Shown piece after piece: positions 7,269 through 23,902 of a stretch of DNA of 64,000 nt (position 1 is its first letter; the number at the start of each line of letters is the position of its first letter). The position numbers were made by a program, and so were the translations under genes. Source of the stretch: Candidatus Poribacteria bacterium (GTDB taxonomy: Bacteria; Poribacteria; WGA-4E; JAJDTR01). The stretch is taken from assembly GCA_028820655.1 (NCBI GenBank), contig JAPPIK010000056.1, positions 399,880 through 463,879 of the forward strand. The letters run 5' to 3'. Below the pieces are notes generated by a model. That model was not told the DNA's origin, did not search any database, and was given only the letters and a program-made list of their open reading frames with translations.

Positions 7269-7299
7269 ACCCGGTAGGAGCGATCTCCGAATCGCGACC
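7269..7299 (+). repeat. Interspersed hairpin repeat, copy 1
   Basis: ACCCGGTAGGAGCGATCT continuing CCGAATCGCGAC; the same string occurs again at 15574-15604. It contains a GCGAT/ATCGC stem with a 6-nt loop. It lies in the gap before the WYL regulator. A second exact copy 8.3 kb away makes it a dispersed repeat rather than chance. Confidence 0.8.
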
Positions 7300-7407
7300 T
7301 TTTGTTGCCTCGTAAGTCCCATCCTAGCTTGAGCGAATTACGGCTCGCCGTGCTTAATGAGAACCTGCCCGTTCCACTCTTCCCAGTCTTTGGAAGAACA
7401 GACGCAA

Positions 7408-8400
7408 ATGTATCGAACTTACCAGATGGCACGGGTTCTCAAAGTCGCAAGCCGAATCCACCACCAACCCCGCCGATGGACGCGCCCCCGCCTTGCGGAT
7501 ACCCTAGGCGTGGACAAAGCAACCATCCAACGCGACATTGACCTCTTGCGCGAAATGGGAATTCAGATTGTAGCCCGGGGGAAACAGGGATACGAAATGA
7601 ATTCCGACGTTTTTCTTCCCGCCCTCAATCTTGATTTCGAGGAAGCCCTCGCTCTGATTACCGCGGCAAGTGTCTATAAAGCAAATGAAGGACAGCAAAC
7701 AAAAGATGCGTTGGACAATGCGATCGCGAAAATCGCGATAGGTTTACCCAAAAGCACCCAGCGCGTGCTGCGACAGATTGCTCCACAAATTGACATCCCG
7801 GATTCTCAGGTGAGCGAACCCGATGAAATTCAGTCGCACCGGAAAACGCTGTACGAGGCAATTCGTCAAAGGCTCAGAGTCACCATCACATATGACTCCT
7901 TCAGCCGCGGCAAACGCACCCGTCATCGTATTTCCCCCTATGCCGTTATATTTCGCAAACACGCCTGGTACGTCATTGGGCATTCCGAAACCAGAGGGCG
8001 CGTATTAACCTTCCGCATCAACCGCATCCACCATCTCTCCATCTCGCACTCCCCCTACACCATTCCCGATGACTTTTCCGTCCAAAAATACCTCGAAAAA
8101 AGCTGGGATGTCATGCTCGGCGCCGAGACGCGCGTCGTTATCAGATTCGCGCCGCGCATTGCGCCGTTGATTCGGGAAGTACGCTGGCACCCAACCCAAC
8201 AACTGTGCCCAATGCCCGATGGCTCGCTTCACTTTGAAGTCACCGTTGCCGGTTTGCGCGAGATTTCGTGGTGGGTAATGACATGGGGAGATGAAGCGGA
8301 AGTTCTTGAACCGAAAGAATTGCGGGAGCACGTGGCGGAGGCGGCAGAGAGGATGGTCGAGGTGTATCGAAACAAGTCTCGCAATCAACCACATACTTGA
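7408..8400 (+). CDS. WYL-domain transcriptional regulator of the CRISPR locus
   Basis: DNA-binding regulator with an N-terminal winged helix (PRLADTLGVDKATIQRDIDL near residues 30-50) and a C-terminal WYL domain (RLRVTITYDSFSRG, then RHRISPYAVIFRKHAWYVIG), plus a WCX-like C-terminal part. I chose the ATG at 7408 because the fold begins there (MYRTYQMARVLK). The frame also extends to 7357, but that adds an unlikely tail. It is the first gene of the CRISPR block and ends 187 bp before cas10d on the same strand. WYL proteins are known transcriptional regulators of several CRISPR-Cas loci, so control of cas10d onward is a reasonable inference, with nucleic-acid or nucleotide ligand sensing as the likely input. 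Confidence 0.88.
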   Translation: MYRTYQMARVLKVASRIHHQPRRWTRPRLADTLGVDKATIQRDIDLLREMGIQIVARGKQGYEMNSDVFLPALNLDFEEALALITAASVYKANEGQQTKDALDNAIAKIAIGLPKSTQRVLRQIAPQIDIPDSQVSEPDEIQSHRKTLYEAIRQRLRVTITYDSFSRGKRTRHRISPYAVIFRKHAWYVIGHSETRGRVLTFRINRIHHLSISHSPYTIPDDFSVQKYLEKSWDVMLGAETRVVIRFAPRIAPLIREVRWHPTQQLCPMPDGSLHFEVTVAGLREISWWVMTWGDEAEVLEPKELREHVAEAAERMVEVYRNKSRNQPHT

Positions 8401-8437
8401 AATAGACGAAAAAAAGCAGAACCTACATCGGCCGCCA

Positions 8438-8454
8438 AGGACGGGTTCGGTCCT
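8438..8454 (+). promoter_or_regulatory. Small inverted repeat between WYL gene and cas10d
   Basis: AGGAC and GTCCT flank a 7-nt centre. A wider pair GGGTT (8443-8447) and AACCC (8469-8473) overlaps it. No T-run follows, so it is not a classic terminator. It could be an operator for the WYL protein; this is speculative. Confidence 0.25.
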
Positions 8455-8545
8455 GCAACCTATATTGTAACCCTCAATCACAGACCTGTCAAAGCAATTC
8501 CACAATGTTTTTTCTACCAGTTGCAGGTTTGTACGACTATTCACA

Positions 8546-8587: not shown

Positions 8588-11437
8588 ATGGTAAAACAAA
8601 AATCCGGAACTGAAGAATTACTCTTTTCGCTTGGTATTGATTTAGAGGCTGACGACCTCTTCCAAACGTATGTAGAAGAGGTCGCCAATAAAAAGTTGCG
8701 AGAATATCAGGCAATCATCCAATACGGCGCGAAGGAGGGTGAATCGCTCTATCTTCACGTCATCAATGGGATTTTCGTTCTGGAGCGATTGCGTCCCATC
8801 CTGTATCTGGAAGATATTGAGGTGCAACTGCTGTTTAGTGCATTCAGCGTCCATGATTTGAACAAGCTGCAAGAGTTCCGAAACGAGAAGCGTTCGTTCA
8901 ACTATCTGGCAAACGCGAAAAATATCGGGGCGGTGCTGACGAACCTTGAGATGGAACGATTTTTCCCGGAATGGAAAAATTATTTGAAAGACATTGAAGT
9001 CCTTGTCCGCGCCCATTCAGGTTACCATAACACCTACGATGAAACGCTTGATTTGGCGTACAATCCGTATTCACACGACAGAGATCGACTTCTGAATTAC
9101 TTAATTCCGATAATCCGGGCAATGGATGTAATTGACCTCTCGAAAACGCTTGAGGAACGAGCAAAAAAGGCTGACTTCCTCAAACACATTAACCGAATCC
9201 TGGATGTACAATACGAATTTGTTTACCACAAGGTGAGTGAACAGCGAGGCATAATGACGAACCTCATCCACAATGAAATTGCAGAGCGCCTGGAAACGGA
9301 AAAGGACCTCCTGCCGCTGCTTTACTATCCGGATGGTGTAGCATATCTTGTTGATCGCCACAGAGATGTCCAAACCACATCCGATGAACTCTCAGCGCTT
9401 GGAAATCGTGTTGTTAAGAACATTGAATCAAAGACTAGCGAAGAATTTAGAAAGTTCATTCAGGGCAGTCCCGCAGGCATCAAGGTGGATGAGAAGTGCT
9501 TGTCGCTCGGGCTATCTTTCGATCGGATTTGGAATGAGGTGCGGAACATCATCAGCGAGCGAAAGTACGCTTCTAAAGTGGATGATATGAATGACCGTTG
9601 TCGGAGAAGACTCCAGGACGCTCGGGCGAAATCGGAAAAGACGAAACCGAGTAAGAAGAACCCTAATCCTGCGTCACAGGTTGTGTTGATCGATGAAATC
9701 TTGGCTGAGGATGCCCATTTGTTACCGCCCGACGATGACGCCGTGAGAATTGGGGAGTTAGTTCGGACGTACTACATCTTCCTGAACAAGCACTTCTCCC
9801 AAAACATCCCCGACGCATGGAATTACATTTACGATTTGCTTGAGTTGCCACTGGAGATTGAGAATACGACGTGTCGCGCGCGATATTCGAGTTTCAATGC
9901 ACTATCCGACAGGGGATACATTATCGGGCGAGACCTTTACAATGATGGTAGAAACCTTGATGAAATTTACGAATTGATTGTCCACGATGGCACAGCCATT
10001 TTGGAAACGTCCCGCCCGGAAAGCGAATTTGGAATGTTAGCGGATTACGTTCACAAGTATGTGGATTTCAGTTTCACGGCTGACCGGGGTCGAAATTTCG
10101 CGGCTAATCTCTCCCGCTATGTGGGGGATAATCACGTTCAGTGTAGCACTTGTGGCGGGGAATTTGAAACAGATGAGTGGATGAAACCGGACGTGCCGCC
10201 GAATATCAAGGTGCAATATTTCTCGAATCGACTTGAAGGAGGCACATGGCGCGAACCGAAACGCCGTGTCTGTAAAGTCTGTCGCACGCAGTACATGCTT
10301 GACAAAATCTGTTACAACGTGGGCGGGAGCACAGCGACACTGTTCATTCACCTATATCCGATTTCCTTTTTCACCGACGTATTTATCCACGCTTTTCGTA
10401 CGGCGCAGGACCGATTTCGTGACCCAGATTTTCCCTCTGTATTTCTCAAGACGGACGATGCGTTGCGACACTACCAAGAATCGGCGCAGTTAGAGTTGGT
10501 TATGCCGTTTAGTAGAACAAAGGTCAATGGCAACCCGCTACCGAGATTTTCTGAGGCTCTCGGCAATATTTTAACTATTCCTGTCAATACCCCAGGGGGT
10601 AATAACACAGAGGACGTTTTATATGCTATTGGGAACGCCCTGCTCTACCAACGCTTTTTGGGTTGTCGCGCAGTGCTGACCGACTCGTCAGTTCCGCTCT
10701 TTTCCGGCGATGAATTTGACCACTTTTTCATTGACCATATCCCGCTTGCATTTCGTGGGTGGTTGCCGGATAACAACCTTAATAGTAATGTGACAAAACA
10801 GGTTTTTGAACAACTACTCAAACTACACAAAATCCGATCTCAAGTTGGAAGTATTGACGCAGATGATTTGGTACGGCTGATTCGAAGCTTAAATTATGAC
10901 GCACTTGAACTTTACTACGTAACTCACCGAATGATTAAACGTGGACAAGCGGGAAATGAACCGCTGCAGTTCGCAACCGTTCGTAACACGGCGCCACTCA
11001 TTGCCGATGTTGTGGCACAGAAAGGAGGAGAACCGATTATGGCTCACATTAAAGATCTCGCTCGCATTGCGTGGGAGGGGCGATTGAAAGGCGATAGTCT
11101 CAAGGATAATTCTCTTGCGAAACCGCTTGATGTGGCATTCGACAGCCTTGAACGCTGGCAACCAGAGCGCGAAACCCCAGAGGAGGCGCGAGCAATTATG
11201 TCAAAGGAAATTGCCCGAGCGATTGAACGCCTTGACCCACGATTTTTCGGTGCGACGAAATTAGAAAACATTTCGCAATTCGTTAAGGTTCTGTTCGATC
11301 AGATTTACAAAGGCGTTTATCAAGGCAATGTGCTCGATCTAATTGAAAACCGGACGCGAATTCGTGCCGGGTACCTCTACTTCATCACAGAGATGATTCC
11401 GAAGCGCGACAAAGAAAAGGAGGAACAACAGTCATGA
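8588..11437 (+). CDS. cas10d: Type I-D large subunit Cas10d (Csc3) with HD nuclease domain
   Basis: Large subunit of the type I-D Cascade. In this subtype the HD nuclease sits here rather than on Cas3. The N-terminus has the HD signature: H57, the H89-D90 pair (FSAFSVHDLNKL), then H143 and H147 (RAHSGYHNT). A zinc-binding site is formed by C519/C522 and C562/C565 (CSTCGGEF, CKVCRTQY). The helical C-terminus from residue 818 matches the position of the small subunit Cas11d, which is probably also made separately from an internal start (see 11039). Length 949 suits the family. AAGGAGAT precedes the ATG; the stop overlaps the csc2 start as ATGA. Confidence 0.93.
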   Translation: MVKQKSGTEELLFSLGIDLEADDLFQTYVEEVANKKLREYQAIIQYGAKEGESLYLHVINGIFVLERLRPILYLEDIEVQLLFSAFSVHDLNKLQEFRNEKRSFNYLANAKNIGAVLTNLEMERFFPEWKNYLKDIEVLVRAHSGYHNTYDETLDLAYNPYSHDRDRLLNYLIPIIRAMDVIDLSKTLEERAKKADFLKHINRILDVQYEFVYHKVSEQRGIMTNLIHNEIAERLETEKDLLPLLYYPDGVAYLVDRHRDVQTTSDELSALGNRVVKNIESKTSEEFRKFIQGSPAGIKVDEKCLSLGLSFDRIWNEVRNIISERKYASKVDDMNDRCRRRLQDARAKSEKTKPSKKNPNPASQVVLIDEILAEDAHLLPPDDDAVRIGELVRTYYIFLNKHFSQNIPDAWNYIYDLLELPLEIENTTCRARYSSFNALSDRGYIIGRDLYNDGRNLDEIYELIVHDGTAILETSRPESEFGMLADYVHKYVDFSFTADRGRNFAANLSRYVGDNHVQCSTCGGEFETDEWMKPDVPPNIKVQYFSNRLEGGTWREPKRRVCKVCRTQYMLDKICYNVGGSTATLFIHLYPISFFTDVFIHAFRTAQDRFRDPDFPSVFLKTDDALRHYQESAQLELVMPFSRTKVNGNPLPRFSEALGNILTIPVNTPGGNNTEDVLYAIGNALLYQRFLGCRAVLTDSSVPLFSGDEFDHFFIDHIPLAFRGWLPDNNLNSNVTKQVFEQLLKLHKIRSQVGSIDADDLVRLIRSLNYDALELYYVTHRMIKRGQAGNEPLQFATVRNTAPLIADVVAQKGGEPIMAHIKDLARIAWEGRLKGDSLKDNSLAKPLDVAFDSLERWQPERETPEEARAIMSKEIARAIERLDPRFFGATKLENISQFVKVLFDQIYKGVYQGNVLDLIENRTRIRAGYLYFITEMIPKRDKEKEEQQS
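11039..11437 (+). CDS. cas11d: Predicted internally translated small subunit Cas11d
   Basis: Inside cas10d, the string AAAGGAGGAG (11021-11030) is followed after 8 nt by an ATG at 11039 that is in the cas10d frame (codon 818). Translation from it gives a 132-residue, charged and mainly helical protein beginning MAHIKDLARIAWEG. Published work showed that type I-D, I-B and I-C systems make their small subunit from an internal start within the large-subunit gene, and that it lines the Cascade backbone. The ribosome site here is stronger than that of most genes in the window, and a coding sequence has no other reason to carry it at this place. The product itself has not been observed. Confidence 0.75.
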   Translation: MAHIKDLARIAWEGRLKGDSLKDNSLAKPLDVAFDSLERWQPERETPEEARAIMSKEIARAIERLDPRFFGATKLENISQFVKVLFDQIYKGVYQGNVLDLIENRTRIRAGYLYFITEMIPKRDKEKEEQQS

Positions 11438-12423
11438 GTATTCTGGACCACTACACCGATTTTATGGTTAATCAATATGAGAATTTTCCACAAAGCCGTT
11501 ACCTGACGTTGATTATATCGCGGAAAGCCGAATCAGAAATGATTTTCCGCACCGAGGGATCTGGTGAAGGGTTAGCACGCGATTCTGTTCACGCCGGGAT
11601 CAACAATCGCGAGGTGATTTCGCGTGTGACTATAAGCAAGCGTAAGCAGACCGCTGTTGAACGCCGGACCGGGCGTGAACTGTTGCGCCAACACAACCTG
11701 CTTTTCTACGCGGCGGATTCAAGAGGCAATCGCGCGGAAACCGAGGACAATATATGTGCCTTGAATCGCAATAAGCCCTGCGGAATTTGCGCCGACTGCA
11801 TGGTTTACGGTTATGCCGTTGGCGGGGGTGGCGCCCAAAAATCTCGCGTTATTACTGACGATGCCTTCAGCGTCTTGTCATACCAAACGGTTACGGCAAA
11901 GCGAACTTTCAACGCTCTATACGACAATAGTACAATGCGCGACCCGGTTTCCGGGGATGCGTCAGCAAGCATCCAAGAGGACGAATACGTTAAACCGGAA
12001 ACGTTGTTTATCGACATGCAGACGCTCAAAGACTTGACAGCGCATGAAATTCGCTATGTTATAGCTAACGTGCTGCGAAGTCGTCGCTACGGCGCTATCT
12101 CGTCACGGTTGGGCAAGATGCGGAATACACTTGTCGGTGCAATCTTCAGCGACTGTGAGCTCTTCAGCAACCTGGAGTTGACACAGCGCGTCTATGACCG
12201 ACTCGGCTCAAATGGACAGCAATTCCCACTTGACGACAAGCAGGTGGTGACGGAAATCACCGGTGCCGTAGAAGATCTGTCGCACGAAGTCATCGGCAAT
12301 CTACAACCAATCGCTGACACAGAATTGACCGAGCTGATCAGTGAGATTCAACAAACGTTCGCGTCGCCAACGGAAGTAAAAGGGCTACTGGAATCAATTA
12401 CCGCGCTCTATCCACAAGGGTGA
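11434..12423 (+). CDS. csc2: Type I-D Cascade backbone protein Csc2 (Cas7d)
   Basis: RAMP-fold protein that polymerises along the crRNA and forms the Cascade backbone. The 329 residues contain family-typical blocks: RTEGSGEGLARDSVHAG near the N-terminus, the Cys-containing stretch NRNKPCGICADCMVYGYAVG near 110-127, and RSRRYGAISSRLGKMRNT. The GICADC stretch looks like a metal or structural Cys cluster. The start overlaps the cas10d stop (ATGA) and has AAGGAGG 10 bp upstream, so it is translationally coupled. Confidence 0.93.
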   Translation: MSILDHYTDFMVNQYENFPQSRYLTLIISRKAESEMIFRTEGSGEGLARDSVHAGINNREVISRVTISKRKQTAVERRTGRELLRQHNLLFYAADSRGNRAETEDNICALNRNKPCGICADCMVYGYAVGGGGAQKSRVITDDAFSVLSYQTVTAKRTFNALYDNSTMRDPVSGDASASIQEDEYVKPETLFIDMQTLKDLTAHEIRYVIANVLRSRRYGAISSRLGKMRNTLVGAIFSDCELFSNLELTQRVYDRLGSNGQQFPLDDKQVVTEITGAVEDLSHEVIGNLQPIADTELTELISEIQQTFASPTEVKGLLESITALYPQG

Positions 12424-12465: not shown

Positions 12466-13182
12466 ATGCACATCTATCGTTGCGAATTTGAATTGATGGA
12501 AAACCTCTTTTTCGCCAGTCGCGAGGTGAGCAACTTTTTCCAAACCGAGCCGGTTATCGGAAACTATGCCCTCGCTTACGCGCTTGGGCTGTGCAACTCG
12601 AGTTATCATAACGATAGTGAAATCACCTATGCTGCGGATTTGGATCGACTCAACAAAGTTGGCATTTACATTACGCCCGGGACGTTGACGGAGAAAGCTC
12701 GTTTCACGGTGACTCAATTCAACGCGATGTCGGACTCTTACTGGTTTCAGATGGAACAGAACGCCATTTCCGTAGACAGACGCCGTATCTTTAATCCGCG
12801 GTTAAAGGCACGGGCAGCGAACTTTCCACAGATTGGAAGGCTCAAACTCCTGTCAATCGGCAACCGGGGCGTTTTCTATGTAACAAGCCAAGAGAAACTG
12901 CGGGTTCCACGTTACATCCGGCTCGGAAAATTTATGAGCAAGACAAAGATTTCCGCGAGGAAACAACGTTACCGTGAAGTTCAGAGGGAAACCGCGATCT
13001 ATCCAAACTATCTCAACCCAAACGATCTGCCGTCAGATATGCGAATTGGGATGTTCGATATGCTCAATATCCGCCCTACACCCTTAATCCGAAACGTCCA
13101 CCTATCGGGCAGTTTCTGGCAATTGGCGGATGATGCTCAAACGCTGCTGCCAGCAGGTATGCGGTTCTTTACCGATTTTTAG
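12466..13182 (+). CDS. csc1: Type I-D Cascade protein Csc1 (Cas5d-like)
   Basis: RAMP protein that caps the 5' end of the crRNA in type I-D Cascade. The 238 residues start MHIYRCEFELMENLFFASRE, characteristic of Csc1, and include the ETEPVIGN-like block QTEPVIGNYALAYALG. Identification also rests on position directly after csc2. A GGAGG Shine-Dalgarno precedes the ATG, and 42 bp separate it from csc2. Confidence 0.9.
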   Translation: MHIYRCEFELMENLFFASREVSNFFQTEPVIGNYALAYALGLCNSSYHNDSEITYAADLDRLNKVGIYITPGTLTEKARFTVTQFNAMSDSYWFQMEQNAISVDRRRIFNPRLKARAANFPQIGRLKLLSIGNRGVFYVTSQEKLRVPRYIRLGKFMSKTKISARKQRYREVQRETAIYPNYLNPNDLPSDMRIGMFDMLNIRPTPLIRNVHLSGSFWQLADDAQTLLPAGMRFFTDF

Positions 13183-13267: not shown

Positions 13268-15583
13268 ATGCCGGAAATAACAGTTACCCTGAACGCAGGC
13301 TCTGAAAAAATCAGTCCGACAAACCCGTTAGGACTGAGACTTCCACCGCTTTACCACCAACAACGCACTTACGAAGCGCTCAAAACAGATGACCTTGTCA
13401 TCAATACCTACAACACAGGCACCGGCAAAACTTGCGCGTCGCTGCTAAAGTTGTTTGACCTTGAAGATGAAAACGTCCTATTCATTGCTCCGACAAATGA
13501 ACTGATACACCAACATGCAGATGATATTCAAGAGTTTGTTGACGAACATGGGTTGAATTTTGTCGTTGCCCCGGTCACTGGCACGAAACTCCGTGAATGG
13601 GAGATTGTCGACAATCCCGGTTATCGTGTTAGAAATCCGAGAAAATTGTACGAACTCATTCAAAATCCGCGTGACTATTTTCCCAAGCTGACACGGCGCG
13701 CTCCCTTGATTTTGGTGACAAACCCAGATCTTTTCTATCTTTGCTTCTATAGTCTCTATTCACAATTAGATAGCGCAAACCTTTTTCGTCCTTTTCTGGT
13801 CAAATTCAACTACATCGTTATTGACGAATTTCACTACTATAACGCCAAACAACTCGCCAATTTTCTGATGTTTTTCATTTTGTCAATGGAGTACGGTTAC
13901 TTCAATGCCGGAAGGAAAATCTGTCTACTTTCGGCAACTCCCGATGGAAGGTTGCTGACCTATCTGAAAAAGATTGGCCTCAATTACGCACTCATCAGCC
14001 CAGAAAATGAACCGACAGAAAGCAAGGATTATGAAGAAATACAGACGCTTTCTGCTCTTGAATTGACGATACACAGTAGCAAAATGTATGATGCCCTCAA
14101 GACACAACCCGAGTGCATCCGCAACTTGCTTGATACAGGAAAAGAAGGCGCTATTATCAGCGGTTCTCTCCGCACCATCAATGAAATTAAACAAGGACTT
14201 CAACAAGGAGGCATTCAGAACAGACTGGGATTGATCACGGGCGCTGTCAGTACGGAGGAACGTCGTGATGCCACCAAAGCTTTTCCACTTGTCCTCGCGA
14301 CACCGACAGTAGACATTGGGTACAATTTCAAAAAGGCAGGAAAATCACGACAAAACATTGATTTCGTCTGTTTTGACGCGCTTTACGGATCGGAATTTAT
14401 ACAGCGAATTGGGCGAGCAGGCCGGTTACTCGGCAAAAAAGATTTCAAACATCCAAGCATTGCGCACGCGTATGTGCAGGGGAAACTCTATTCAAGATTG
14501 CAGTCAGGGAAAAATTATGGGCGTCGGGAGTTTGCCTCACTCGTGAAAGACTCCCTTGGAGAGGATAATCGTTTCTACTATTACATTGAGTCTTACGCGG
14601 TACTTGAGGCGTTCTACCCACTCTATGATCTTTTAAGAAGGACATCGGAGGAACGTCATGAGCGCGTCCGTGAAATTTTCGAGATGATTCGACAAGTATT
14701 CGCGCCAGAGAGTGAAACTACATTTGACGAAGTGATGAAAAAGATTCGGTGGCATCACACCTATAAAACGGTTATTGATGCGTCCGAGGAGAATGCTTAC
14801 AACACCTTTATTCAACATCAACAGGAAAAAGCGACATGGAGTTATTTCAAACACCAGAGTTGGCTCAGTGGAAAGTTGGAAGCGTTTCGAAATACACCAA
14901 GTGATCAATTAAACACCGCAATCAGAGGTTTTCTTAAACATCGTTCCAACCGAGAAAGAGTTGTTGAACACGCAAAACAGAAATACCATTCGATTCAGTC
15001 GCTATTCAACTTTCGCGGTTCGGATGTCGGCATCCGGTGCGGCATTCATGACCCGAATCATCTTTTCCAGAACACTGCTGAACATGCCGAGTACGACCTT
15101 TTTCACGTTCTTTCGCATTGCGAGTTTCAACAAATTGCCAAAAGGAAATACTATGAACTCACGGGCAATTGGGGAAATCATTGTGAGTTTTTCGTGAAGG
15201 TTCATCACTTCAAGAATCCACCGCAAAAGATCGAATTTGACTACGATGCCGGTAGAGACAATCAGGAATCCTTTGAACGCCAATACTGTTGGGGCCCCAC
15301 GGCATTAAAAGGTTTACGGTTAAGACTGATTAATGGAGTCGTCCCGCTTGAAATCCAGACAGTGTTGACAAACCGACACATCACTTGTCTCTTATCAAAG
15401 ATGGAGAGCCGATATGCCCTCAAAAACATCTTGGAAACGAAACGACAAGCCGCCCAGCCACTAACCGTAACCTTTGAAGATGGCAAACAGCAGGAGTATC
15501 TGTTAGTGTTTGGTTCACAAGCGTTTCTAATCCATGCTGAGTTACGGGGAAAGTGGAAAGAGAAGGAACAAACGACCCGGTAG
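13268..15583 (+). CDS. cas3: Type I-D Cas3' helicase (no HD domain)
   Basis: Superfamily 2 DNA helicase recruited by Cascade to unwind target DNA. Motif I is TGTGKTCAS (from residue 50), motif II DEFH (186-189), motif III SATP (about 222) and motif VI QRIGRAGR (about 378). No HD phosphohydrolase motif is present, in line with type I-D, where that activity is on Cas10d. The roughly 370-residue C-terminal part is family-specific. Length 771. The gene lies between csc1 and cas6, whereas cas3 usually leads I-D operons. GAGG precedes the ATG. Confidence 0.9.
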   Translation: MPEITVTLNAGSEKISPTNPLGLRLPPLYHQQRTYEALKTDDLVINTYNTGTGKTCASLLKLFDLEDENVLFIAPTNELIHQHADDIQEFVDEHGLNFVVAPVTGTKLREWEIVDNPGYRVRNPRKLYELIQNPRDYFPKLTRRAPLILVTNPDLFYLCFYSLYSQLDSANLFRPFLVKFNYIVIDEFHYYNAKQLANFLMFFILSMEYGYFNAGRKICLLSATPDGRLLTYLKKIGLNYALISPENEPTESKDYEEIQTLSALELTIHSSKMYDALKTQPECIRNLLDTGKEGAIISGSLRTINEIKQGLQQGGIQNRLGLITGAVSTEERRDATKAFPLVLATPTVDIGYNFKKAGKSRQNIDFVCFDALYGSEFIQRIGRAGRLLGKKDFKHPSIAHAYVQGKLYSRLQSGKNYGRREFASLVKDSLGEDNRFYYYIESYAVLEAFYPLYDLLRRTSEERHERVREIFEMIRQVFAPESETTFDEVMKKIRWHHTYKTVIDASEENAYNTFIQHQQEKATWSYFKHQSWLSGKLEAFRNTPSDQLNTAIRGFLKHRSNRERVVEHAKQKYHSIQSLFNFRGSDVGIRCGIHDPNHLFQNTAEHAEYDLFHVLSHCEFQQIAKRKYYELTGNWGNHCEFFVKVHHFKNPPQKIEFDYDAGRDNQESFERQYCWGPTALKGLRLRLINGVVPLEIQTVLTNRHITCLLSKMESRYALKNILETKRQAAQPLTVTFEDGKQQEYLLVFGSQAFLIHAELRGKWKEKEQTTR

Positions 15584-15604
15584 GAGCGATCTCCGAATCG
15601 CGAC
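15574..15604 (+). repeat. Interspersed hairpin repeat, copy 2
   Basis: Same sequence as at 7269-7299, including the core GTAGGAGCGATCTCCGAA and the GCGAT/ATCGC stem. It starts within the last codons of cas3 and provides the cas3 stop codon region, filling most of the gap to cas6. Its insertion may have set the present end of cas3. Confidence 0.8.
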
Positions 15605-15658
15605 TTCCTATTACTACGTAAATCCTGTTCTAAATGACCTCATGAGGAGACAACCCCC

Positions 15659-16498
15659 ATGCCCATCAGCGCCGTCATCCACCTCGTCCCCCTAGAAGAC
15701 GTCACGCTCCGCCCCACAATGGGGCACCACGCACACGCCGCGTTTCTCTCACTGCTGCGAATGGGGGATCCGGCGAAAGCAGAAGAGGTCCACGCCGCGT
15801 CAAGACAGAAACCGTTCACCGTGTCGCCGCTCATCGGCAAGGGAGAACGACGCGGAAATCTGCTTCGCATCCGTGCCGGGACGGAATGTTGGCTGCGTTA
15901 CACCTTCCTTGACGACGAACTCTTCGCCTATTTCGGCAGCGCTTTTCTGACACAGAGCCTGCCGTCAATCCGCCTCGGCGAGGCGAGGTTTCAACTCAGC
16001 CGCATGGTCGCGTCTTCCGGTGTAGACACCGACTGGAGCGGCACGCATACTTACGAAAACCTCTTTGAATCCGCACAGCCCGACACACGGATTCGTATGG
16101 AATTCCGCTCTCCGACCGCCTTTCGCGAACTCACGCCGCAAGGGAAGAAAACACGGAATCAAGCGAATATCGACTTGATACGCTGCTATCAGAGCTGGGT
16201 CAACAAATGGAACGCGTTCGCGCCGATGCAGATTGATAAAGGTCGAATGCTTGATTTCATTACCCATCAAGCTGGACTGACCGAGGTTAAGTCCGAGAGT
16301 AAGATGTTGGATTTCGGCAAACACAAGGAAATTGGGTTTGTCGGAAGTTGCACATACCAATTCCTCTCGGATCGGCAAACCGAAAGTGGAGAGGAGGTTG
16401 AAATGTTACGATTGGCAAATCTCCTCGCGAATTTTGCCTTCTACTGCGGCACCGGCTACAAAACGACGATGGGAATGGGACAAACGCGGAAAACATAG
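15659..16498 (+). CDS. cas6: CRISPR RNA endonuclease Cas6
   Basis: Metal-independent RNase that cuts the pre-crRNA within each repeat, leaving an 8-nt 5' handle, here expected to be ATTGAAAC. The 279 residues carry the C-terminal glycine-rich loop typical of Cas6 (CGTGYKTTMGMGQTRK). Candidate catalytic His residues lie early (MGHHAHAAF). The start has GAGGAGA 9 bp upstream. The stop codon overlaps the first unit of a GGAAGnnn tract that runs up to the next gene. Confidence 0.9.
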   Translation: MPISAVIHLVPLEDVTLRPTMGHHAHAAFLSLLRMGDPAKAEEVHAASRQKPFTVSPLIGKGERRGNLLRIRAGTECWLRYTFLDDELFAYFGSAFLTQSLPSIRLGEARFQLSRMVASSGVDTDWSGTHTYENLFESAQPDTRIRMEFRSPTAFRELTPQGKKTRNQANIDLIRCYQSWVNKWNAFAPMQIDKGRMLDFITHQAGLTEVKSESKMLDFGKHKEIGFVGSCTYQFLSDRQTESGEEVEMLRLANLLANFAFYCGTGYKTTMGMGQTRKT

Positions 16499-16575: not shown

Positions 16576-18258
16576 ATGTCCGAAAACTACATACCGCTGT
16601 CGCAGATAAATACGTATGTGTTTTGCCCGCGCCGGTTTTACTACGAATCGGTTGAGGGGCATCAGGTAATAAACGAGCATGTCGAGGAAGGGAAGATTAA
16701 GCATGCCCGTGTTGATACCGAGATGAAAGATCGCAGTGAACGCGATGCGCGCGTTTCTCGCAGTCAATATCTTGCCTCCGAGACACTTGGGGTTTCGGGT
16801 TACCTTGATCTCATTGAAGAAAAAAAGGGAGTTACGTATCCTGTCGAATACAAGAAGGCGGGGACGGGTGACTGGCTCAACGACCAAGTCCAACTCTGTC
16901 TCCAAGGAATGCTCATTGAAGAGAGCACCGGGACTGAGGTGCCCCACGGCTACATCTACTACATCGGGTCGAAACGCCGCAGAAAGGTTGTCTTTGACGA
17001 TGAATTGCGACAGACCAGCCGCGACTTCGTTGCCAGCGCCGAGTCGCTGCTGCAGACAAGAAAAATTCCCGAACCCGTTCATGACAACCGCTGCAACGGC
17101 TGCAGCGTGCGGAAGATCTGTCTTCCGGATGAGGTCGCCTATCTCCATGAGTTGGATGATCGTCCCAAGCGGATAAAACCGGTACTCGGCATCGACAACG
17201 TATTGTACGTTGACGAACCGGGCTGCACATTGAAAAAGACCAGTGAGCGATTGCTGGTTGTAAAAGAGGGCGAAACTATACGCGATATTCCGCTCATTCA
17301 CGTCGGGCAAGTGGTCCTCTGCGGGAACATCAGCGTGACAACTCCGGTAATGCAGACATTGCTCATTGAAGGGATTCCTATTGTTTACCAGTCCGCATAC
17401 GGGCGGTATCAGGGAACGTTGACTCCGAAAATCTCCCGAAACTCACTGTTGCGCGTTGCCCAACACCGGGTTGCGGACGACTCGGAGAAGTGCCTTGCGC
17501 TCGCCAAAGCGTTTGTGCACGGCAAACTCACGAACATGCGGATGATGCTCCAGCGCCGGAAATGGCGAAGCAGAACTGTCAATGGCGAAGATTGTGATTC
17601 CGAGTTTGAACCAGACCGAACTGAAACGGAAAACGGAGGTCCCGATATCCTGTCGAGCATTGACGACCTCGCTGCCATGCGGCGGAAAATCCCCAGGGCG
17701 GGTGGGCTGCCGGAACTTCTGGGAATTGAAGGCAATGCCTCCGCCGCGTATTTCCGATCGTTTTCGGCGATGCTCAAACCGGAAATGGGCTTCGACTTTC
17801 AACGACGGAGCCGTCGTCCGCCGGCAGATCCGACAAACGCACTGCTCAGTTTCGCGTATTCGCTGCTAACCGCAGATCTCATTTCTGCGATACAGCTTGT
17901 TGGTCTCGACCCGTATGTCGGGTTCTTCCACCAACAGAATTACGGTCGCCCATGCCTTGCGCTTGACCTCATGGAGGAATTCCGTCCGATTATCGCCGAT
18001 TCCGTTGCCATTACGCTAATCAACAAACGGCAAATCAAACTGGACGACTTTACCCAGTCACACGGCGGATGGTTTCTGAAAGATGCTGCACGAAAGCGAT
18101 TCTACGGCGCTTACGAGGGACGAAAAAATGAGACGATTACCCATCCCATCTTCAAGTACAAGATCGACTTTCGACGTGCCATTGAGTTGCAGGTGCGACT
18201 GCTTGCCAAGTGTCTGATGGGAGAGATTGACACCTACACATCACTAACAGTTCGATAA
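16576..18258 (+). CDS. cas4-cas1: Cas4-Cas1 fusion, spacer integration protein
   Basis: Bifunctional adaptation protein. Residues 1 to about 190 are Cas4: four iron-sulfur cysteines (C17 in CPRRFYY, then C173, C176 and C182 in CNGCSVRKIC) and the RecB-like motif GYLDLIEEKKG with YPVEYKKAG. From about 195 on it is Cas1, the integrase, with catalytic E385 (LLGIEGNAS), H452 (FFHQQNYGRP) and the acidic pair region ALDLMEEF (464-468). All key residues appear intact. Cas4 trims and selects prespacers by PAM; Cas1 with Cas2 integrates them. GAAGGAG precedes the ATG. Cas4-Cas1 fusions are best known from other subtypes (for example I-G and V-B), so this is unusual for I-D. Confidence 0.95.
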   Translation: MSENYIPLSQINTYVFCPRRFYYESVEGHQVINEHVEEGKIKHARVDTEMKDRSERDARVSRSQYLASETLGVSGYLDLIEEKKGVTYPVEYKKAGTGDWLNDQVQLCLQGMLIEESTGTEVPHGYIYYIGSKRRRKVVFDDELRQTSRDFVASAESLLQTRKIPEPVHDNRCNGCSVRKICLPDEVAYLHELDDRPKRIKPVLGIDNVLYVDEPGCTLKKTSERLLVVKEGETIRDIPLIHVGQVVLCGNISVTTPVMQTLLIEGIPIVYQSAYGRYQGTLTPKISRNSLLRVAQHRVADDSEKCLALAKAFVHGKLTNMRMMLQRRKWRSRTVNGEDCDSEFEPDRTETENGGPDILSSIDDLAAMRRKIPRAGGLPELLGIEGNASAAYFRSFSAMLKPEMGFDFQRRSRRPPADPTNALLSFAYSLLTADLISAIQLVGLDPYVGFFHQQNYGRPCLALDLMEEFRPIIADSVAITLINKRQIKLDDFTQSHGGWFLKDAARKRFYGAYEGRKNETITHPIFKYKIDFRRAIELQVRLLAKCLMGEIDTYTSLTVR

Positions 18259-18302
18259 AGCCACATCATGTGCAAAATGCTGTTAAGAGGAAAACACGAC
18301 CA

Positions 18303-18575
18303 ATGCTTTATGCAGTAGCCTACGACATAACCAATGACCGGCGGCGAAACCAAGTTGCCAAGATTCTGCTAGATTTCGGTAGGCGCATCCAGTACAGTCT
18401 GTTTGAGTGCAACACGGATCGACGTGCCTACCTTCGCTTGCAAGATCGGCTTCAGGATGCGATCAACCCGAAGAAGGATACCGTGACGTTTTATCATCTG
18501 TGCCGCTCTTGCGAAAAGGGAATCGAACGTCTCGGTATTGAGAAGGGCATTGACACAGCCGCATACATCGTTTAA
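18303..18575 (+). CDS. cas2: CRISPR adaptation protein Cas2
   Basis: Small ferredoxin-fold dimer that bridges two Cas1 dimers in the integration complex. The 90 residues begin MLYAVAYDITNDRRRNQVAK and end KGIDTAAYIV, both family-typical, with D8 at the position of the conserved Asp. I chose the ATG at 18303 with AAGAGG upstream; the frame opens earlier at a GTG (18270), which would add 11 residues with no match. It is the last cas gene before the leader. Confidence 0.95.
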   Translation: MLYAVAYDITNDRRRNQVAKILLDFGRRIQYSLFECNTDRRAYLRLQDRLQDAINPKKDTVTFYHLCRSCEKGIERLGIEKGIDTAAYIV

Positions 18576-18790: not shown

Positions 18791-21700
18791 CCATCAAAGA
18801 GAAGAATCTCGAGTACGAGATTGAAACATAAATCCGAATGAACTCCGTCAACATCGCATTGTTCGCCATCAAAGAGAAGAATCTCGAGTACGAGATTGAA
18901 ACGACCGCTACGGTCACATGCTCGCGGAAGCCTGGGGGCCCATCAAAGAGAAGAATCTCGAGTACGAGATTGAAACTAACATCATGGTTGATGTGTACTG
19001 TACGCATTGCGTGGCCATCAAAGAGAAGAATCTCGAGTACGAGATTGAAACCTGCAGAATAAGAAATGGACATGCCCCACGCCCGCCGAACCATCAAAGA
19101 GAAGAATCTCGAGTACGAGATTGAAACTTGTCAGCCCGACCCGGGCCCTCACGACCGTCCTATAAACCATCAAAGAGAAGAATCTCGAGTACGAGATTGA
19201 AACAGTTCCAGGAGGTGGTCGGTTATGGATTTTGAGGGTCTCCATCAAAGAGAAGAATCTCGAGTACGAGATTGAAACGTACTTCTCCTCGCGGGAGAAC
19301 GGGGTTGCTTCGACCATCAAAGAGAAGAATCTCGAGTACGAGATTGAAACGCGCGGCACGTTGGCATCGATGATTCGCCACAGCGTGTCTTCCCATCAAA
19401 GAGAAGAATCTCGAGTACGAGATTGAAACAAGGGCTATGATGACGGCTTTGGTCGCGTCTTTCACGGCCATCAAAGAGAAGAATCTCGAGTACGAGATTG
19501 AAACTTTGCGTGTCCGAGGCACATCCACCGACGCCGCCCACCATCAAAGAGAAGAATCTCGAGTACGAGATTGAAACTACGATAACATCGCCGCGGCGAT
19601 AGAAAACGTCGATGCCATCAAAGAGAAGAATCTCGAGTACGAGATTGAAACCCAATCAATCCCACTTCCTTGAATTTTGGCGCGTTGTTTTCCATCAAAG
19701 AGAAGAATCTCGAGTACGAGATTGAAACCGAGACAGGGCGCAAGCGGCGGCTTTATCGCGTTTGGCCATCAAAGAGAAGAATCTCGAGTACGAGATTGAA
19801 ACATTGACGACGGGCAAGGCGAAAGCCGATTCGATCCGCCATCAAAGAGAAGAATCTCGAGTACGAGATTGAAACAGGCTGATACTTAAGGGAAGCCTTG
19901 AGGTTGCCACAGATAACCATCAAAGAGAAGAATCTCGAGTACGAGATTGAAACATGTACGGGTGGTGATGGTGATATCAGAGGAAGAAAGTGCCATCAAA
20001 GAGAAGAATCTCGAGTACGAGATTGAAACCACTCATCGCGCCCGCATACGCTCTAATTCCGTCTGCCATCAAAGAGAAGAATCTCGAGTACGAGATTGAA
20101 ACTGGCGTTATTGGCATTGGGTTTATAATGCGAGGGGACCATCAAAGAGAAGAATCTCGAGTACGAGATTGAAACATATCGCGCAACGGGTTGCCGTCCG
20201 GACGCAGCTTGACCATCAAAGAGAAGAATCTCGAGTACGAGATTGAAACCTTCTTCAGAACCGAAGTGAATTTCGCCGGCACAAGCCATCAAAGAGAAGA
20301 ATCTCGAGTACGAGATTGAAACAGTTTTCTAACGGCGTCGAAAATTAACTAACATTTCTCCATCAAAGAGAAGAATCTCGAGTACGAGATTGAAACCACC
20401 ATCGCCGTAATAACCCCCGCTCAGGTCAAGGAAGTCCATCAAAGAGAAGAATCTCGAGTACGAGATTGAAACGATGAATTATGGATGCGGCGCGATTTTG
20501 CCGAGGACACCATCAAAGAGAAGAATCTCGAGTACGAGATTGAAACATTGATCGTGTACCGCATGCCCAGCGGATTGCGCTCCATCAAAGAGAAGAATCT
20601 CGAGTACGAGATTGAAACATCAAACAGGTGGTGCGCGGCGTGCGGCAGGGGTGTTCCATCAAAGAGAAGAATCTCGAGTACGAGATTGAAACGTCCGCCA
20701 GTTGCACATCGAACAGCACCGTGCGGTCGGGAACCATCAAAGAGAAGAATCTCGAGTACGAGATTGAAACGAGACAGTAGGATCGAGTACAAGCGTGTAT
20801 GCGTTGCCCCATCAAAGAGAAGAATCTCGAGTACGAGATTGAAACTACACCGAGACTGCCGCGATAGACGCTGATGACGGCGCGGCCATCAAAGAGAAGA
20901 ATCTCGAGTACGAGATTGAAACGTTGTACAACTGTTCCAGACGCATTGACCGAGCTGCTCCCATCAAAGAGAAGAATCTCGAGTACGAGATTGAAACCGT
21001 GTCCGTGGACGTGTACGAAGATCAGGGCTGGACGCCATCAAAGAGAAGAATCTCGAGTACGAGATTGAAACGATGAAAGGCAAGTTCGTTTGATACTCCC
21101 ATGATTGTCCTCCATCAAAGAGAAGAATCTCGAGTACGAGATTGAAACGCCGCAGATCGTGGCAAGTGGCAACGTGTCATGGGAAACCATCAAAGAGAAG
21201 AATCTCGAGTACGAGATTGAAACTTGTTCTGTTCCGAACTATCGCTCATGCGCATGTCGCCCCATCAAAGAGAAGAATCTCGAGTACGAGATTGAAACTC
21301 CAACCCTTCATTGCTTCGATTCCGCCCGCCTGATCCATCAAAGAGAAGAATCTCGAGTACGAGATTGAAACACACCGACTGGCTCGTCGTTCCCAGATGT
21401 TAAATCAAATCCATCAAAGAGAAGAATCTCGAGTACGAGATTGAAACGCGGAGAACGATGACCGGGTAACGATGGACGATTACATGCCATCAAAGAGAAG
21501 AATCTCGAGTACGAGATTGAAACAATTCATAATCTACTAACCACCTCATCAGCTATAAACTTCCATCAAAGAGAAGAATCTCGAGTACGAGATTGAAACG
21601 TGAATCGTTCACCGATTGTCTGCCCCGTATTTGGACCATCAAAGAGAAGAATCTCGAGTACGAGATTGAAACCCTTGCCAATCCTCTGTTGGTATTTCGC

Positions 21701-23902
21701 AAAATCTCTCCATCAAAGAGAAGAATTTCGAGTACGAGATTGAAACAAGGCATTGAATAAGGGGTTAAAATGAAGGTTCACGAAACCATCAAAGAGAAGA
21801 ATCTCGAGTACGAGATTGAAACGATGACAATATCCCACTGCTGTGGGTTTGTTCCGGGCCATCAAAGAGAAGAATCTCGAGTACGAGATTGAAACAGCGC
21901 CGACCAGATGAGCTACATAACGAAAGCGCATCTCCATCAAAGAGAAGAATCTCGAGTACGAGATTGAAACGTACACGTCATTAAGCGAGTCTAGTACCGT
22001 GGCGCGACCATCAAAGAGAAGAATCTCGAGTACGAGATTGAAACATAAATACCTCGGTCGCTCCGAATCTAAACCGAAGCCGTCCATCAAAGAGAAGAAT
22101 CTCGAGTACGAGATTGAAACGTTAAGCCAGCACGGAAAGCCGGTGAGATAAACCTTCTCCATCAAAGAGAAGAATCTCGAGTACGAGATTGAAACTCGTC
22201 ACCTGTGTACAGCCTCGCCCGTTCCGCAATCTCTCCATCAAAGAGAAGAATCTCGAGTACGAGATTGAAACGCGTTGCCTTCGTCGTCTACAATCGCGTC
22301 CGACAAACCATCAAAGAGAAGAATCTCGAGTACGAGATTGAAACATGACAGAAAATTGTTGCTATCTGCTATCGACCGAGACCCATCAAAGAGAAGAATC
22401 TCGAGTACGAGATTGAAACTTGTTTTCACCTCTTGGCGACACTGGGAGCTCCCCAATCATACCATCAAAGAGAAGAATCTCGAGTACGAGATTGAAACTT
22501 GCAGAAAGCTATAGTCATGGCGTTGGAGAAGTTGCCATCAAAGAGAAGAATCTCGAGTACGAGATTGAAACTTTGTCGCAGTCGGAAGGCAGGCACGCGA
22601 CTATTTCCATCAAAGAGAAGAATCTCGAGTACGAGATTGAAACTTGGTGCTGGTCTTTCAATAGGCGCAAAGGGTAAACCATCAAAGAGAAGAATCTCGA
22701 GTACGAGATTGAAACCGTGCAAGCGGATATATACAGCTTCGGCGCGTTCGTCCCATCAAAGAGAAGAATCTCGAGTACGAGATTGAAACTCCGTCGAACT
22801 GCCACCTGCCATTGTGACGCAGTTAGCCATCAAAGAGAAGAATCTCGAGTACGAGATTGAAACAGCGCGGACGAACGGAATACCGCGTCCACGCAATTCT
22901 CCATCAAAGAGAAGAATCTCGAGTACGAGATTGAAACTTTGGGGTCAATCATCAATCAATACCATGTCCTTTGCCATCAAAGAGAAGAATCTCGAGTACG
23001 AGATTGAAACACATTTCGTAACATTCGGAAGGAAATTAACGATGGCTGACCATCAAAGAGAAGAATCTCGAGTACGAGATTGAAACGTTGTCGTGTACTT
23101 ATGACGGAGCAACATCGTCACGATGCCATCAAAGAGAAGAATCTCGAGTACGAGATTGAAACATTCCGTATTTGGTTATCGAAGTCGATTGCGTCCGCCA
23201 TTCCATCAAAGAGAAGAATCTCGAGTACGAGATTGAAACACAATCAATCCTGATATCTTAGCTGGCAAGCCTACGACCATCAAAGAGAAGAATCTCGAGT
23301 ACGAGATTGAAACAAATACGCATCTTTAGCCATTTCCAATGCTTCATCACCATCAAAGAGAAGAATCTCGAGTGCGAGATTGAAACTATCACAACCAACC
23401 ATAGGCAGGGGTAACACCCTGCCCCATCAAAGAGAAGAATCTCGAGTACGAGATTGAAACAAATGACGCCGTTGTCGCGGTATCTCCATGCGACATACAC
23501 CATCAAAGAGAAGAATCTCGAGTACGAGATTGAAACTTGACACGGATACACGGGATCAGCGTAAGAGCTGTCCATCAAAGAGAAGAATCTCGAGTACGAG
23601 ATTGAAACGGCGTTGGATATAACATGAACCACTGATCGTTTAACCCATCAAAGAGAAGAATCTCGAGTACGAGATTGAAACCTTCGTTTTGTGAATGCGT
23701 GTGCATAATGGGCACTTCCCATCAAAGAGAAGAATCTCGAGTACGAGATTGAAACCTTGTACACGCGAAACACGTCTTCAAAAGTGTGGTCGAATCAAAG
23801 AGAAGAATCTCGAGTCCGAGATTGAAACTCCACATCGGGGAATTGGAAGCCGACGACGTGGACATCAATCAAAGAGAAGAATCTCAAGTCCGACACTGAG
23901 TT
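18791..23902 (+). CRISPR. Type I-D CRISPR array, 69 repeats and 68 spacers
   Basis: A 37-bp repeat starting CCATCAAAGAGAAGAATCTC and ending GAGTACGAGATTGAAAC recurs 69 times by my count, separated by 35-42 bp spacers with no duplicate spacers noticed. Each repeat holds a perfect 7-bp stem AATCTCG/CGAGATT with the loop AGTA, a suitable Cas6 substrate. The first 67 units are identical except for single changes in the unit at 21710 (stem C to T) and the unit at 23350 (loop A to G). The last two units (23792, 23866) are degenerate, the final one losing its 3' stem arm and tail. Transcription is therefore left to right from the leader. Apparent reading frames across the array are artefacts of the repeats. 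Confidence 0.99.

Follow-up and report, generated by a model that had tools for sequence, protein, structure and literature searches.

In the type I-D system of the window, by which we mean the whole analysed stretch of 64,000 nucleotides from Candidatus Poribacteria, ribosomes very probably initiate internally on the cas10d mRNA and make a free small subunit, Cas11d, of 132 residues besides full-length Cas10d. We give this reading, in which the free protein is arrayed along the inner filament of Cascade, a probability of about 0.93. It draws on the sequence itself, on conservation with constrained silent sites in two lineages and on a predicted fold, and from these we infer use of the start by ribosomes, the stoichiometry of the products and the role in Cascade. 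Ribosomes would begin translation anew within the cas10d mRNA, using a Shine-Dalgarno (SD) sequence at 11021-11030 and an ATG at 11039, and the resulting Cas11d, made in addition to the Cas11 domain within Cas10d, would lie in the inner filament beside that same domain, as in Synechocystis, where Cas11d in the filament is thought to support the R-loop. The Synechocystis complex contains one Cas10d and two Cas11d (PMC9123187); a strong internal SD would fit a need for more Cas11d than Cas10d.

The close matches of the window (G000:C4:399880-463879) all lie in Poribacteria assemblies. The type I-D operon is complete in the window, from a regulator through cas2, and is accompanied by a CRISPR array. 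The large-subunit gene cas10d/csc3 (8588-11437, forward strand, 949 aa; TIGR03174 E=1.9e-41, PADLOC Cas10_Id E=8e-179, PDB 7sba_I E=3.6e-18) stands in one operon with csc2/cas7d (11434-12423, forward strand), csc1 (12466-13182) and cas3' (13268-15583), the genes by which type I-D is recognised, and the matches of the operon genes to TIGR03174, TIGR03157, TIGR03159 and TIGR03158 all exceed the curated cut-offs. The remaining components are a WYL regulator (7357-8400), cas6 (15659-16498), a cas4-cas1 fusion (16576-18258), cas2 (18270-18575) and the array, whose 65 exact repeat units (18799-23755) are followed by at least one that has diverged.

The earlier note had described an SD followed after 8 nt by an ATG in the cas10d frame at codon 818, giving a 132-residue product, and this proved exact to the base. 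The internal SD AAAGGAGGAG occupies 11021-11030 of the forward strand (11021-11028 reading AAAGGAGG), and the 8-nt spacer AACCGATT fills 11031-11038. The ATG, at 11039-11041, is codon 818 of 949, in frame and 132 codons from the end of cas10d, and the putative cas11d (MAHIKD...) runs from 11039 to 11437 on the same strand; its start lies in the 3' part of cas10d, within the range of some 130-150 codons before the stop that marks a Cas11d start. Shuffled sequences predict 0.99 occurrences of AAGGAGG-N5-13-ATG per 64 kb and two were found, at the internal site of cas10d and at the csc2 start, while AAAGGAGG-N5-13-ATG occurs 73 times genome-wide against 27 in a reversed control. As a lone match of this kind is near the chance level for 64 kb, the case depends on comparison and conservation. 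The anti-SD duplex at the internal site (-12.3 kcal/mol) is the best among the 49 in-frame starts of the window's cas10d, and the predicted accessibility of SD and ATG is moderate only. A decoy SD and ATG at codon 871 is nearly equal in the window (-12.0), and is weak or absent in most relatives and hence not conserved. A search for 16S rRNA in the window's own assembly detected none; that of relatives ends in ...GGATCACCTCCTTTCT, as seen at two of the five 16S loci, and the phylum therefore possesses an anti-SD complementary to this site.

Conservation was assessed in the window's cas10d and 16 further Poribacteria genes of the same lineage (52-84% identity, two partial). Even at 52% Cas10d identity, all 17 retain the ATG and, at an unchanged distance from it, the GGAGG core; the loss of both SD and ATG in homologues, which the earlier note had named as grounds for abandoning its proposal, was thus encountered in none of them. 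The SD reads AAAGGAGG in 16 of the 17 and CAGGGAGGG in the most distant gene, L059. Codon 812 is AAA in 16/17, codon 813 is GGA in 17/17, and codon 817, the ATT preceding the ATG, is invariant (17/17), none of the three showing a silent change; codons 815-816, by contrast, differ among the genes in protein as well as in DNA. In a synonymous-divergence scan, the lowest 7-codon window of the gene falls on codons 811-817 (observed/expected 0.28, gene-wide permutation P=0.025). The upstream ribosome-binding site is, in short, conserved among homologues in the manner of a Cas11d start. In L050 (G059:C574:1500-5100), a frame change, possibly an assembly error, splits cas10d into two open reading frames of 477 and 503 aa; the SD, ATG and reading frame of Cas11d are intact there.

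A second, distant Poribacteria I-D lineage (L008-L018 and L021, n=12), whose Cas10d is nearer that of Synechocystis (about 25% identity), carries a strong internal SD of its own, GGAGGTGACAAAATG (GGAGGTGCGAACATG in one member), and an ATG at the homologous residue in 12/12 genes, M1 aligning to M1. The distance between SD and ATG differs from that in the window's lineage, while SD, ATG and the AGT following the ATG are kept, and of all 7-codon windows in the gene, the one with the least synonymous divergence again coincides with the SD (observed/expected 0.02, P=0.001). When every in-frame ATG, GTG and TTG was scored by anti-SD pairing in both lineages, the internal start ranked first in all 29 genes, and in every gene of the window's lineage where the two could be compared, the internal SD was stronger than that of the cas10d start. 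That the site is 'unusually clear', as the earlier note had it, holds against Synechocystis (-12.3 versus -5.4 kcal/mol) but not against this second lineage, where pairing reaches -14.9 kcal/mol in 11/12 genes. One Poribacteria genome (G047, C29 and C82) possesses cas10d of both I-D lineages.

The 132-residue product is predicted with confidence by AlphaFold to be all-helical (pLDDT 88.7), as befits the helical fold of Cas11, and a Foldseek search of this model against the PDB returned the solved Cas11d of Synechocystis, 7sba_J, as best match (prob 1.00, TMq 0.72, E 0.035); in the model at least, the product thus resembles the I-D small subunit it had been proposed to be. The five best matches, 7sba_J and then chains of Cas10d, are all type I-D and the next falls to prob 0.35, a specificity that we consider a stronger argument for the predicted fold than the modest E-value of 0.035. 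Similarity between profiles is weak (hhalign against the Synechocystis Cas11d profile, prob 21%), and the link is therefore carried by the fold match. The fold prediction for whole Cas10d was poor (pLDDT 42) and was left out of the analysis.

Internal translation of Cas11d, which the earlier note described as known from other I-D systems, is indeed documented, and is said in the literature to be widely conserved across type I-D (PMC10212523, PMC9123187). In Synechocystis PCC 6803 (McBride et al., 2020, as cited in PMC9123187 and PMC10212523; PDB 7sba/7sbb) the likeness extends to an in-frame position in the 3'-terminal part of cas10d, an internal ATG preceded by an SD, the same predicted fold and a similar size (146 aa, against 132 aa in the window); the sequences are only weakly similar (16% in the structural alignment). 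Synechocystis served as a positive control: translation from its ATG that follows AAGGA reproduces exactly the 146 residues of the Cas11d chain in the solved structure (7sba_J). This start was among the top candidates of our scan, yet stronger ones stood at other codons; as a proven start is not the best-scoring, SD strength alone cannot identify one. The pSYSA record is without a cas11d feature, though 7sba_J is exactly that protein, and the expectation that ordinary annotation would miss such a site is a fair one. The closest Cas11d sequence outside Poribacteria belongs to the Nostoc-type I-D systems of cyanobacterial plasmids (L038, L039, L041; hhalign prob 98%, E=2e-13), in 3/3 of which an ATG follows a GGAG SD, but about 8 residues further upstream and with weaker pairing (-6.4). 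Cas11b and Cas11c likewise arise by internal in-frame translation of a large-subunit gene (PMC11899642, PMC7684278), although in other subtypes (I-B, I-C) and from cas8b and cas8c rather than cas10d. A literature search by titles and abstracts, a scope that leaves room for one, found no earlier report of an internal Cas11d start in Poribacteria; given the wide conservation in type I-D that a review reports (PMC10212523), the kind of arrangement is already known.

In the window's lineage, suppression of synonymous divergence begins well before the SD, spanning codons ~773-811 of cas10d (10904-11020, forward strand, about 120 nt), and this block sets the lineage apart from Synechocystis. Observed/expected values are 0.55-0.68 in 25-codon bins over codons ~773-810, against ~1 elsewhere, and a 21-codon window as low as this stretch arose in 0/3000 permutations. 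As the dip reaches 40-45 codons upstream, not all of the constraint in this lineage belongs to the start. The encoded protein diverges little within the lineage and is 71-74% different from that of the outgroup L059, among the highest values in the gene, and the target of selection therefore seems to be the nucleic acid and not the protein. The block is not conserved in L059, and a synonymous-divergence scan of the 12 genes of the second lineage detected no upstream dip.

Such an extended block would be accounted for if some or all of the Cas11d came from a transcript of its own that starts inside cas10d, with the block of about 120 nt as its promoter or operator and the SD as an ordinary leader SD. 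We regard this as unlikely, however, since a search for sigma-70-like promoters in 10700-11500 found none of that type, the second lineage has its start without the dip, and L059 keeps SD and ATG though the block is not conserved there. The reading we favour, admittedly a guess, is that these 120 nt might form a leader for Cas11d built into the cas10d mRNA, selected as RNA or DNA, which would control Cas11d output by setting the ratio of Cas11d to Cas10d or by responding to a regulator; we hold it tentatively. It may include two RNA hairpins (10941-10974 and 10979-11018, forward strand), the loop of the first being a conserved GGAAATGAAC. These are suggestive only: both can form in most homologues, and nowhere else in the gene is the consensus folding energy as strong as in this stretch. 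Relative to codon-shuffled copies, folding energy is the gene's strongest at codon 786 (mean z -1.49, this start having been added by hand), a signal absent in L002, L054 and L059. Covariation in the hairpins amounts to 12 double changes against 6.1 after shuffling (0/500), and is not decisive, as other parts of the gene score similarly or higher with structures fitted to them. A covariance model of the putative element matched only six of 40 related genomes, once each and at cas10d, and the stretch had no match in Rfam.

Other causes of the upstream constraint were considered and set aside. An overlapping or antisense reading frame is countered by stops in every other frame in most genes. Recombination seems unlikely, as several codons inside the block vary normally at silent sites. 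A GAAC-N22-GTTC operator shared with the cas10d promoter, as a site for the WYL regulator, has its upstream copy only in the window and L002 and is not conserved.

If internal initiation is set aside altogether, the SD-like sequence might only slow elongating ribosomes before the Cas11 domain and thereby aid its co-translational folding, with no separate protein made. The motif does sit where conservation is poor, immediately ahead of a domain predicted to fold alone. Pausing would not need an ATG at a fixed distance, however, whereas the ATG and the ATT before it are invariant while codons 815-816 vary, and the second lineage keeps SD, ATG and the following AGT at a different distance; as free Cas11d is moreover established in Synechocystis, we consider pausing alone improbable. 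It is more improbable still that the motif only reflects conserved residues (Lys-Gly-Gly ... Met) encoded by common codons and plays no part in translation: chance alone supplies about one AAGGAGG-N-ATG per 64 kb, and the non-conserved pair at codon 871 is in frame too, but silent sites are constrained exactly at the SD in two lineages, the internal start outranks all others in 29/29 genes, and cyanobacterial Cas10d lacks Met at the equivalent residue, so that the protein does not require it.

Comparative genomics shows the hidden cas11d gene to be under selection in two distant Poribacteria I-D lineages. Leaving out Cas11d is a recognised pitfall when I-D systems are rebuilt from annotation, and the exact start needed to express the complete complex is supplied here. 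The constrained stretch before that start raises the question of how the ratio of Cas11d to Cas10d product is set.

Several further features of the operon deserve mention. The ATG of csc2 overlaps the stop common to cas10d and cas11d (ATGA), and the SD of csc2, AAGGAGGAA, from 11417, is encoded by the final codons of these two genes (11417-11437). The Cas4-Cas1 fusion at 16576-18258, although part of a type I-D operon, matches the type I-G model cas4g_cas1g (621 against a cut-off of 560 bits). A 58-nt repeat (CCCGGTAGGAGCGATCTCCGAATCGCGAC...), in copies 81% identical at 7269-7326 and 15575-15632, flanks the part of the operon from the regulator to cas3'. Between the WYL gene and cas10d, at 8419-8455, lies a palindrome-like element, GAACCTACATCGGCCGCCAAGGACGGGTTCGGTCCTGC, copies resembling which are found upstream of cas10d in L002, L003 and L004.
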